DNA from: Granulicella mallensis
GTDB taxonomy: Bacteria > Acidobacteriota > Terriglobia > Terriglobales > Acidobacteriaceae
DNA length: 64,000 nt
NCBI RefSeq assembly: GCF_014203225.1
Contig: NZ_JACHIO010000006.1
Coordinates: 186,001 to 250,000, forward strand
Direction of reading: 5' to 3'
A program made the position numbers and the translations under genes. How positions within the stretch are numbered: the first letter of the stretch is position 1; every line of letters starts with the position of its first letter. Below, one piece after another: positions 48,595 to 51,266 of this stretch. The notes below the pieces were generated by a model. That model was given only the letters and a program-made list of their open reading frames with translations, searched no databases and was not told the origin of the DNA.

Positions 48595-49620
48595 TTATTC
48601 CTCCGAAAAGAAACCATTCACAGGTTCGGTCACGGCGAAGGTGAGGCCTGTGCTCTCCGCGAAACCTTGAAAAACAAGCTCACCGGTCGGAGCGAAGGCA
48701 AGGAAGGCCGACGTATTTACCCGATGATCGTTCCACACCTTCAAGATCTTTTCTGCGGCCATGTCCACAAACCATGCTCTCCCATAAGGAGCTCCGCCGG
48801 GCTTGCCTGCTTCCTGCACAATCAGGTAGTGCCCATCACTGGTCATCGTGAGTTTTCCGGGAGGGATATCGAAGACAGTGATCTTCCGGGAAGATACGTC
48901 CACGGCCGCCAGGCGGTCACCATTTGCACCAGATACCCGGAGCACGACCTCTCCGGCTGCTTGCATCAGAGGCTTGGAGAGGAGCAGCTTGCCCTGCCCA
49001 TAAGCTGAGTACGGCAGGAGGCCCTCGCCGTGATACTGGGCCAAGTCAAGCCAGCCCTCATGGCTCCCAGTCTGAAGACCTGCGAGATGAATGGAGTGAT
49101 CCACACCACCAACACCGGCTCTCCCATCGGCTTCGGCCGGGATGGCTGCACCAGCAGTGAGCTTCATGTACCCACGTGTAAGGTCGACAAGCACTGCGCC
49201 TGATCTTCCGCGAACGAAGCGAGGAGAGGCGTCCTCTTCGAAGGCTTCGGGGAGCGGCCGCGACGCAACCACTCGGAACTCTGGAACGGAAAATGCGATC
49301 CAGGTATAAGTGCGGCGCACCCGATCCGAAACAATGGTCTGGGCCTGCCGGTCGGCAGGACTGTACATCATTGCGTCCAGATCGCAAAAGGCAGTGCGGG
49401 GGCTTTCTGCGGGGACCAGCTTCGTGCGATTTGAAAGCAAGATCTCCTCGATCGTTTGCCCGTTGGTGAGATCCACTTTCACGACAGTGTTGCAGGAAAG
49501 CTCATAGAGAAAGCGCGGCGGTCCGCTCCGTTGCGCCGGCGCGGTGCCACATAGAAACAACAGCACGGCGGCGATGACAATCCACCTCGGGATATAGCCG
49601 ATTAACAGGTCCCGCCTCAA
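48595..49620 (-). CDS. Secreted propeller-like protein of unknown function, next to lysozyme-like protein
   Basis: A TTG preceded by GAGG (6-base spacer) gives 341 residues with a signal peptide (YIPRWIVIAAVLLFLCG, cleaved near APAQ). The rest alternates short beta-strand blocks such as GNGDR-like and SDGHYLIVQE, suggesting a propeller; I do not recognise a named family. It begins 17 bases after a gene for a lysozyme-like protein and 3' to an Hcp-like gene. A periplasmic protein directly downstream of a peptidoglycan-hydrolase gene is the usual place for an immunity protein, so that is a hypothesis. It is convergent with the AraC gene. Confidence 0.6.
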   Translation of the reverse strand: MRRDLLIGYIPRWIVIAAVLLFLCGTAPAQRSGPPRFLYELSCNTVVKVDLTNGQTIEEILLSNRTKLVPAESPRTAFCDLDAMMYSPADRQAQTIVSDRVRRTYTWIAFSVPEFRVVASRPLPEAFEEDASPRFVRGRSGAVLVDLTRGYMKLTAGAAIPAEADGRAGVGGVDHSIHLAGLQTGSHEGWLDLAQYHGEGLLPYSAYGQGKLLLSKPLMQAAGEVVLRVSGANGDRLAAVDVSSRKITVFDIPPGKLTMTSDGHYLIVQEAGKPGGAPYGRAWFVDMAAEKILKVWNDHRVNTSAFLAFAPTGELVFQGFAESTGLTFAVTEPVNGFFSEE

Positions 49621-49637
49621 AACTGCCTCATTTTCTA

Positions 49638-50795
49638 TTAAGGGTTAATGATCCTGCTGTTGAGAACATGCGAAACATAGTCCGGACCGCCAGGAATGGT
49701 TTCCTTCCCATGTTTATTCTTATGCAGCAAGGAGTGATCGCGCCACCATTTGAGCCGATCATCCTTGGTGTTCTCATACCAGGACGCCGTAGCGGTGGCC
49801 GCATTCTTTTGTTCCTGTACGACCAGAACGGGATTCTGAGGATCGGCGCGATCTAAGGTGGCATTGTGCTCAAATAAATACTCGCGCTGCGGCTTGTGAT
49901 GAGGCTTGGGCGGGGCAGCATCCGGATCGATGATGCCCGGACCATATCCATTGAACGCGCGAATGCCTTCACGACGGATCTGCTCCTCGGTAGGTGCCGG
50001 CAGTGTGATCTGGAGATCGGGCGGCGGTTGCACCGGGCCAGGCAGTGCGCCAGGAAGAGGAATGGCCGCTTTACGGGCTCGTGCCTCGTTATACTCGCGC
50101 ACGTACCGTTTGAATTTGGCGCTCTGAGGATATGCCTCGAGATGTTGTCGAGCGCTTTTTAGTTTGCTGTTCAGTATCTTCATCCCCCCGGCGAGATTGG
50201 CCTTCCAACTCCAGATCTCGTCATCGGTCGGGCGTGGATACGTGATCTGCGTAAGACCTACACCGCCCAGTTTATCTCCGCTGAATAGCGGGTACCCGGC
50301 CACGAGCCCCCGGCTCTCAAACTGCCGCGTTCGCGATTCAACACGGATAATTTGCACCATAGTGTCGGAAGCTCCGCTCCGAAGGAGCATCTGCTCGGAT
50401 ATAGGCAAGGCAGAGCCGAGAATCAACAGCCCCTGGCTCTCCGCCTTCAGCAAATCTTTCCCAACGTTGACACTGACAGAAACGGAAAGATCTCCCCCTC
50501 GTATCTTCGTGAAGGGAATGGTAAATACGGGCCCCTGAGTAAGTACAGAGATAGGAGGGTGCATGATAATACGTCCTTCCGCCAAAGGAACCTTAACCGG
50601 CTTCATCACGAGTGCCACCCTCCAGTTGTACCGAAGAGCGGCGAGATCCGTTGCCACCACATTGAAAACGGTTGCAGTCACACGGATAGCAGGCATGCTG
50701 TCGTCGAGACTAATGCGAAAAACGGGACCTGGCGGGTCGAACGTAAGTTCGACTCGAGGATCATTGGCTGATCGCGTAGGCGTCTGCGGTGCCAC
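49638..50795 (-). CDS. Lysozyme/transglycosylase-like protein with Ig-like N-terminal part
   Basis: A GTG preceded by GAGGA gives 385 residues and no signal peptide. Residues about 15-130 look like a beta-sandwich. From about 145 comes IIRVESRTRQFESRG, then LFSGDKLGGVGLTQITYPRP and IWSWKANLAGGMKIL. The Glu-Ser followed by GVGLTQIT resembles SLT/goose-type lysozyme active-site motifs (E-S... G-x-x-Q-I). A Pro-rich linker and a C-terminal region with REYLFEHNATLD and ASWYENTKDDRLKWW follow. Absence of a signal peptide with an Hcp-like gene 57 bases upstream fits a peptidoglycan-degrading effector delivered by a contractile system. The call of a lysozyme fold is by eye only. Confidence 0.6.
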   Translation of the reverse strand: MAPQTPTRSANDPRVELTFDPPGPVFRISLDDSMPAIRVTATVFNVVATDLAALRYNWRVALVMKPVKVPLAEGRIIMHPPISVLTQGPVFTIPFTKIRGGDLSVSVSVNVGKDLLKAESQGLLILGSALPISEQMLLRSGASDTMVQIIRVESRTRQFESRGLVAGYPLFSGDKLGGVGLTQITYPRPTDDEIWSWKANLAGGMKILNSKLKSARQHLEAYPQSAKFKRYVREYNEARARKAAIPLPGALPGPVQPPPDLQITLPAPTEEQIRREGIRAFNGYGPGIIDPDAAPPKPHHKPQREYLFEHNATLDRADPQNPVLVVQEQKNAATATASWYENTKDDRLKWWRDHSLLHKNKHGKETIPGGPDYVSHVLNSRIINP

Positions 50796-50852
50796 AAGTA
50801 TTCCTCACGAAGGATGGGAGAGCGAACCTCACGTGCAGCTCTATGCGGATGG

Positions 50853-51266
50853 CTAATTACTTAGGCGCAGGTCAACGAAGTGCTGAGCATCCAGCGCTGG
50901 CTGCAAGTTGAGGCTGAGCGTGTGGTTTGAACCATCGCCACTCCCTGTACTCCAGTGATTAATCCACCCCTTGAAGGAGTAGGTGCAGATCGCGTCCTGC
51001 TGACTTTCGTCCTGCCAAAACTCGACTTTTATATCCTTTATCTTGTCCCTGGTCACAACGTTTGCAAGGTTATAGAGATGTTGCACCATCGAGAACGGCA
51101 GATTGACATTGTCGTGCATATCGACACTTACCTGGATACTGCAGCTAAGGCTTCCCATCGTCGGCATGCCTGACATGTCAGTCATGGTAGCTAAGGATAC
51201 GTTTGCAGTGAATGCGTTGAACTTTTGTCCATCAATTGTCACGGTCGTTACGGAGGGTTTCGCCAC
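50853..51266 (-). CDS. Hcp/TssD-like tube protein
   Basis: From the GTG at 51266 (GGGG 9 bases upstream; an in-frame TTG at 51272 is the alternative) the protein has 137 residues. It is mostly beta strand, with DMSGMPTMGSLSCSIQVSV, IKVEFWQDESQQDAICTYSF and WINHWSTGSGDGSNHTLSLN. This pattern (G-x-P, a Gly-Ser-rich strand, a central W, a final alternating strand) resembles Hcp/TssD tube proteins of type VI secretion systems. No other type VI genes are in the window. GC content in the two lines I counted is about 44%, well below the neighbours. It could instead be a phage-tail-tube relative. Confidence 0.5.
   Translation of the reverse strand: MAKPSVTTVTIDGQKFNAFTANVSLATMTDMSGMPTMGSLSCSIQVSVDMHDNVNLPFSMVQHLYNLANVVTRDKIKDIKVEFWQDESQQDAICTYSFKGWINHWSTGSGDGSNHTLSLNLQPALDAQHFVDLRLSN

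Follow-up and report, generated by a model that had tools for sequence, protein, structure and literature searches.

Orphan, or auxiliary, hcp islands of type VI secretion systems (T6SSs), in which an hcp gene lies outside the main cluster with toxin and immunity genes beside it while the T6SS itself is encoded elsewhere in the genome, are known (PMC13098142, in the portion available). Also known, from Pseudomonas aeruginosa, is the Tse3-Tsi3 pair, a T6SS muramidase with a goose-lysozyme/SLT fold and its immunity protein (PMC3792639, extract). Here we describe a trio of genes in Granulicella mallensis that, in our judgement, very probably forms such an island: an orphan hcp, a lysozyme-like toxin and an exported immunity protein serving a divergent T6SS encoded on another contig. 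The trio lies in a 64,000-nt stretch (the window; G000:C6:186001-250000) of a genome (G000) that totals 6.47 Mb over 52 contigs. It would represent a known kind of island within a non-canonical acidobacterial T6SS whose cargo Hcps are apparently dedicated.

The locus shares with the described orphan islands an hcp gene away from the main cluster, adjacent candidate toxin and immunity genes, and a T6SS elsewhere in the genome; we infer the roles of the neighbours from gene order, motif, export signal and co-occurrence. It differs from them in its divergent acidobacterial Hcp, which scores below the Pfam TssD cut-off, and in that orphan and core Hcps split here on one branch and follow cargo class. 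With Tse3-Tsi3, as far as the available text describes it, the trio has in common a predicted lysozyme-type toxin, an exported immunity partner and presumed delivery by a T6SS. However, no PDB chain, Tse3 included, was matched by the effector sequence, an Ig-like domain stands in front of the predicted enzyme, and the immunity candidate has 341 residues. Binding of specific effectors by specific Hcp paralogues, seen according to the records available in the PDB entries 9qpe (Hcp3-Tce1) and 9vnd (Hcp2-Hcp3-Bte1), is what we propose here too, although those effectors differ.

The three genes are collinear open reading frames on the minus strand (Table 1), as an earlier note on this DNA had described them, with gaps of 57 bp and then 17 bp between them. 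The use of GTG or TTG starts given there also held, the starts being GTG, GTG and TTG in turn, each standing behind a purine-rich stretch resembling a ribosome-binding site, and that of hcp is consistent with its relatives (about 137 residues, N-terminus MAxPS). Relatives exist for all three genes. The G+C content is 49.8% for hcp, 55.4% for the effector gene and 58.2% for the third gene, against 56.7% for the window. The note had singled out sequence lines of about 44% in hcp; 60-bp lines of that gene do go as low as 43%, but other parts of the window have lines of 35%, so that the low G+C content is a weak sign of transfer. ARAGORN found no tRNA in the window.

The description of the first protein as Hcp/TssD-like proved apt. 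Its AlphaFold model has the β-barrel tube fold of Hcp, and the first seven Foldseek matches were all Hcp chains, with Bacteroidota Hcps among the best. The protein shares 55% and 49% identity with the two Hcps of the C4 contig in this genome. Among 37 loci holding its relatives in a scan of contigs, 24 lie in T6SS core clusters, beside TssB-, TssC-, TssE-, TssF-, TssG- and TssK-type genes; two more (L020 and L021) share one VgrG-linked arrangement, and 11 are orphan. By its substitution pattern (nonsynonymous divergence, dN, 0.14-0.18; synonymous divergence, dS, saturated) the Hcp is under purifying selection.

A search of the genome for contractile machinery, which the earlier note had recommended, revealed two T6SSs, on contigs C4 and C9. 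The note had called the trio an orphan island; hcp does lie apart from a main cluster, but a machine exists. The C4 cluster is a divergent T6SS, encoding in order FHA-like and vWA proteins, TssB-like, TssC, two Hcps, TssE-like, TssF-like, TssG and TssK, followed by a ClpB/ClpV-type AAA+ protein, an FHA protein, a PP2C phosphatase and VgrG. Pfam matches were obtained for TssC (PF17541, E 8.5e-20, 71.5 bits against a cut-off of 25), TssG (PF06996, 5e-15), TssK (PF05936, 4e-7) and VgrG (PF04717, 1e-26). The first FHA-like protein (E 0.002) and the TssB-like protein (PF05591, E 0.009) fell below cut-off, and the TssE-like and TssF-like proteins had no Pfam match and were named by gene order. The C9 cluster is a canonical T6SS, with a VipB sheath, a PF05638 Hcp and DotU, the other genes there being named by reading; its DotU is the sole match over cut-off in the genome.

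Across 150 genomes of the family, the Hcp of the window has relatives in seven, and TssC of the C4 type occurs in exactly the same seven. This co-occurrence is partly built in, because core Hcps sit within the TssC cluster; its informative part is that none of the other 143 genomes holds any copy of the Hcp family. Orphan copies are present in four of the seven carriers (G000, G066, G088 and G128). DotU was matched in 21 of the 150 genomes, and together with a C4-type sheath only in G000 and G117. It was not found (at E 1e-5) in the five other C4-type carriers, which include G088 and G128, TssJ and TssM not having been searched for; G088 and G128 therefore show no sign of a TssL-bearing T6SS.

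The effector family is confined to three of the 150 genomes (G000, G088 and G128) and lies directly downstream of an orphan Hcp in all three, and relatives of the third protein occur in the same three genomes. The trio is complete in G128, inferred to be Terriglobus albidus, where Hcp is followed by an effector 46% identical to ours and by a third protein with a hydrophobic N-terminus and 33% identity, a figure from blastp against a small set (the genome search gave E 1e-20, in two pieces). Thus the co-occurrence that the note had proposed as a check was borne out, with recurrence in another genus. When the search was widened to 396 genomes of the phylum, the effector family appeared in four: our own, G128 and, as distant matches, G236 and G276. 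In G276 the match (E 1e-9) lies in a 4009-aa open frame in which the motif was not found again.

The second protein, as the note had said, lacks a signal, no 11-residue hydropathy mean exceeding 1.6. It has at least 15 relatives besides itself among the best 7997 candidates scored. Its AlphaFold2 model (predicted local distance difference test score, pLDDT, 85) is mostly helical beyond residue 130, with a helix at residues 144-154. Nine residues are invariant in all 16 aligned members (E153, G178, V179, G180, Q183, N200, R279, N282 and G283). The layout of a Glu at a helix end, then GxGxxQ, then NG, resembles that of SLT and goose-type lysozymes, and a candidate catalytic Glu, a GxxQ-type motif and an N-G motif are all present, equivalence beyond E and GxxQ being judged by eye; the FNG/AYN-G comparison falls outside the hhalign alignment. 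The spacing from E to Q is 30 residues, versus 18 in the one SLT protein compared. When residues 128-385 were aligned by hhalign with 20 SLT proteins of related genomes, the alignment fell on the E and GxxQ motifs and paired GVGLTQ with GLMQ (score 24.8, P 0.005). With the columns of the SLT profile shuffled 100 times at the same setting, the score was never attained (highest 22.6, average 13.3), and the reversed profile gave 11.3. Residues 130-385 are likely, on sequence grounds, to be a lysozyme/SLT-like enzyme. The SLT/goose-lysozyme-like motif of the note has stood, then, in its conserved residues; the predicted fold has the support of those motifs and of a weak profile match. The Ig/PKD-like domain in front may possibly bind Hcp or serve in loading.

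The third protein begins with a strongly hydrophobic stretch (11-residue mean hydropathy 3.4 from residue 14), in agreement with the signal peptide that had been proposed for it and that we regard as putative, signal peptides being judged by hydropathy and by eye. A protein search returned one relative besides itself.

Table 1. Features of the trio locus, in positions of the window
Feature	Positions	Strand	Remarks
Orphan hcp (tssD-like), tube protein	50853..51266	-	137 aa; GTG start at 51266
Predicted effector	49638..50795	-	385 aa; GTG start at 50795; no signal peptide seen
Ig/PKD-like N-terminal domain of effector	50409..50768	-	residues 10-129
Candidate catalytic Glu153, ES motif at helix end	50337..50339	-	Glu in 16/16 aligned members
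GVGLTQ, counterpart of SLT G-L-M-Q motif	50247..50264	-	residues 178-183; G178, V179, G180, Q183 in 16/16
N282-G283 (FNG), possible counterpart of SLT AYN-G	49947..49952	-	16/16; likeness by eye
Predicted periplasmic immunity protein	48595..49620	-	341 aa; putative signal peptide; TTG start at 49620
Putative signal peptide of immunity candidate	49528..49620	-	hydrophobic stretch then APAQ, by eye and hydropathy

We then consider the cargo of the other orphan Hcps, 23 of which (from the contig scan, the family genomes and the window) were available. A peptidoglycan hydrolase confirmed by Pfam over cut-off lies beside 11 of the 23: Amidase_2 at four (L088, L023, L024 and L025, of which L023 and L024 are near-identical copies within one genome), Muramidase PF11860 at five (L052, L093, L091, L020 and L021) and Phage_lysozyme at two (L030 and L026). 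Three others are those of the SLT-like effector family itself. An RNAse_A_bac protein with CdiI_2 immunity stands beside two (L089 and L090), a LysM or lytic-transglycosylase-like protein, assigned by reading, at two (C33 of our genome, where LysM is a Pfam match, and L090), and a GH19 protein below cut-off at one (L092). At L037, L051 and C19 of our genome (a 247-aa neighbour) the neighbour belongs to no family, and L055, where Hcp is shortened and the next gene is by reading an SDR, has nothing of the kind beside it; C19 and L055 thus lend no support. Hcp comes after the hydrolase and its follower at L091, L020, L021 and L026. Behind each of the 11 Pfam-confirmed hydrolases stands a protein whose N-terminus is hydrophobic; at L052 the value (1.8) is just under the line of 1.9 used to define one, and at the rest it is at least 2.0. 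The CdiI proteins beside the RNases have no hydrophobic stretch over 1.3, which suits a cytoplasmic target. At these loci the class of candidate immunity protein fits the compartment in which the target is predicted to lie.

A tree of 66 Hcps was built with IQ-TREE from 74 tblastn matches, which after identical or badly sized frames had been dropped gave 65 rows plus the window. The 23 orphan and 43 core rows split on one branch (support 97/90; present in 96% of 200 bootstrap trees); as the tree is midpoint-rooted, it does not give which side is derived. On a tree of 22 of the 23 orphan rows (L055 left out), cargo class required seven changes where the minimum is 6, and 200 shuffles averaged 12.5 with none as low; genome of origin required 13 against a minimum of 6, and its shuffles averaged 14.1, with 60 of the 200 as low, counting 18 and 20 of the 22 rows, respectively, with single-member labels left out. 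These counts are to be read with the facts that cargo labels were assigned after sight of the 66-Hcp tree, that the labels LT, L037, L051 and L092 were given, apart from LysM, by reading, and that near-copies (L023/L024 and L020/L021/L091) favour clustering by cargo. The Hcps linked to amidase, SLT-like, VgrG-linked muramidase and muramidase cargo each formed a single group; the GH24, RNase A and LT pairs did not. The simplest reading of the tree is that an Hcp and its toxin would travel and evolve together. Within the 66-Hcp tree, the Hcps of a contig titled Arcobacter (L044, DYJN01000050.1) fall beside a Bryobacteraceae contig; it is probably mis-binned or mislabelled.

The computational support for the island comprises the Hcp fold, the operon, its recurrence in another genus, the co-occurrence with a C4-type sheath and the invariant lysozyme-type motifs. 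We propose that the orphan Hcp would form or join the inner tube of the C4-encoded T6SS and carry the 385-aa protein by being loaded with it. On firing, a neighbouring diderm cell would receive that protein in its periplasm, and there the lysozyme/SLT-like domain of the protein would cleave peptidoglycan. The exported 341-aa protein, in the periplasm of the producer, would block, presumably by binding, the toxin delivered by sister cells. The grouping of tube protein, peptidoglycan-degrading cargo and periplasmic immunity offered in the earlier note is supported by the Hcp fold, the resident T6SSs and the recurrence of the trio, the enzymatic activity being predicted; each check made was favourable to it or neutral.

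Several results weigh against this proposal. Those that bear on the toxin favour an alternative in which the trio is still an orphan hcp island, but residues 130-385 have some other fold and activity, the toxin is not a glycoside hydrolase and the ES and GVGxxQ motifs are coincidental. The SLT profile match is weak, with an hhalign probability of 7% at its P value of 0.005. Under another match-column setting it falls to a score of 17 and a probability of 0.7% (P 0.08), and the SLT set consisted of 20 of 31 fetched SLT loci chosen by motif pattern. The effector has no usable match in Pfam, NCBIfam, PHROGs or PDB sequences: none of the 16 family members has a Pfam lysozyme match, and the best hit of a PDB profile search (E 1.8) was an unrelated chain. 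The Foldseek and VIA-align lists were filled by Ig-like domains, so that the fold search did not reach the lytic domain; lysozyme was not among the matches listed, a result uninformative on residues 130-385, and a viral library did no better. On the other side stand E, GxGxxQ, N and NG, unchanged in every one of the 16 members, an hhalign alignment that falls on the SLT catalytic motif at a score that no shuffle attained, the peptidoglycan hydrolases over cut-off at about half of the other orphan loci, and a probable periplasmic immunity partner. We consider a toxin other than a glycoside hydrolase improbable, though it is the strongest of the alternatives.

Other unfavourable points concern the remaining parts of the proposed hcp-effector-immunity island. 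The 341-aa protein has no match in Pfam, NCBIfam or PHROGs. The Hcp of the window lies under the Pfam TssD cut-off (PF17642, E 0.12, 12.7 bits versus 25.8); PF05638 was not listed for it at E up to 1, and NCBIfam gave no match. By VIA-align, phage tail tubes, which have the same fold, tie with Hcp within 1 Z. Three of the seven sheath-positive genomes (G098, G117 and G130) have core Hcp copies only, and the toxin genes of L089 and L092 run on the strand opposite to Hcp and so do not form one operon with it. In G088, inferred to be Centralia_MAG_86, the effector contig ends just behind the effector, and the immunity relative stands next to a gene that is by reading transposase-like, close to the end of a different contig; the trio is split over two contigs, which fits, but does not prove, a break at an insertion element. 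(The immunity relative is at L132:6918-9242 of G088:C38, and the effector at the end of L087.)

The trio might alternatively serve the canonical C9 machine, whose VipB sheath and DotU are encoded in the same genome. This we regard as quite unlikely. The C9 Hcp, of PF05638, was unmatched by the Hcp of the window at E up to 10; G088 and G128 hold trio genes without a DotU match; and the 19 genomes that have DotU while lacking a C4-type sheath are all without the Hcp family at E 1e-5. As a carrier of yet another kind, an extracellular contractile injection system (eCIS) or phage-type sheath was rejected, PF04984 having no match at E 0.001 in the genome (control, 3 of 14 matched).

That the three genes came together by chance, or are what is left of a decaying prophage with a tail-tube-like protein, is hardly credible: the tied tail-tube fold, one relative annotated as a phage tail protein and the slightly low G+C content of the first gene speak for it, but the run of Hcp chains in Foldseek, the purifying selection and the missing PF04984 sheath speak against it, and a phage remnant is disfavoured by the neighbour scan (AraC-type, OEP and Darcynin frames, with no phage or secretion-machine domain), by the relatives in T6SS core clusters and by the recurring trio.

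The machine that the island would serve is itself unusual. T6SS subtype iii is reported only from Bacteroidetes in the portion of PMC4793230 available. The C4 cluster shares with it, to judge from that text and an extract of PMC10781749, a TssC of PF17541, and the fold matches of our Hcp include Bacteroidota Hcps; subtype iii is likewise described as lacking DotU/TssL, the component expected of a subtype i machine and for which five of the seven C4-type carriers show no match. It differs in belonging to Acidobacteriota, in that no TssNQOPR-type Pfam match was obtained among the C4 proteins scanned (no dedicated genome search was made), and in having FHA-like and vWA genes and those of a ubiquitin-like operon next to it. 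For acidobacteria, toxins linked to T6SSs are already in print (PMC3482391, extract), and one Acidobacteriota plasmid T6SS is mentioned in the available part of PMC13098142. We recognised no paper devoted to an acidobacterial T6SS among the matches listed from the accessible literature, subscription papers being outside its scope. What is apparently new, then, is an acidobacterial T6SS lineage with a PF17541 TssC, the division of cargo from core Hcps on one branch, and an Hcp phylogeny that follows cargo.

Adjoining the C4-type T6SS is a divergent operon (L011:1444-5107, G000:C4; counterparts in L133-L138). It encodes a ThiF/E1 protein (PF00899, E 9e-14), a RING-like protein (Prok-RING_1, E 0.015, below cut-off), a 93-aa ubiquitin-like candidate that ends in NG and has no Pfam match, an E2 (UQ_con, E 5e-4, below cut-off) and a Ser/Thr kinase. 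Relatives of the E1, E2, ubiquitin-like and RING proteins lie beside the T6SS in all seven C4-type genomes, and of the kinase in five; the ubiquitin-like candidate is 62-87% identical across them. Operons of this E1/E2/ubiquitin-like kind are known in bacteria as such (PMC1779556, extract), and a link to a T6SS was not recognised among the matches listed from the accessible literature. A broader proposal, which we put forward tentatively and consider doubtful, would be an acidobacterial T6SS lineage with a Bacteroidota-like sheath and tube, mostly without TssL, joined to FHA-like and vWA proteins and a complete ubiquitin-like conjugation operon. In it, cargo-specialised Hcps, each the cognate carrier of its effector, would have arisen once from the tube protein of the core and diversified with their toxins, tubes would mix core and cargo rings, and the ubiquitin-like system would tag machine parts or cargo.

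Some further observations were made at individual loci. On C4, 302-aa and 245-aa proteins without Pfam match lie some genes past VgrG and a Gp5-like protein (L015:7792-9462) and are possibly immunity-type; a 30% relative of the former also lies several genes past a VgrG in G128. Five tandem related proteins with hydrophobic N-termini, identified by reading, follow the orphan Hcp and LysM enzyme on C33 (L009:5814-9217), possibly an immunity array. At L051:3697-9104, in Granulicella sp. S156, an orphan Hcp stands together with VgrG, with three hydrophobic proteins related to one another and with a 340-aa protein that fits no family; the 340-aa protein may be a membrane-targeting toxin with immunity copies. 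In G236 a distant relative of the effector domain lies in a 646-aa frame (L141:2332-5070, G236:C112), after which comes a protein whose N-terminus is hydrophobic; no Hcp was seen among the open reading frames listed for that 5-kb contig.

Acidobacteria are abundant in soil, and the trio names for this phylum a matched toxin and antidote, both predicted, together with their tube protein. Because Hcp follows cargo better than it follows genome, whether Hcp paralogues select their cargo, a general question about T6SSs, becomes testable, and natural cognate and non-cognate Hcp-effector pairs are present within single genomes. The machine that would carry them combines Bacteroidota-type parts with a neighbouring ubiquitin-like operon.

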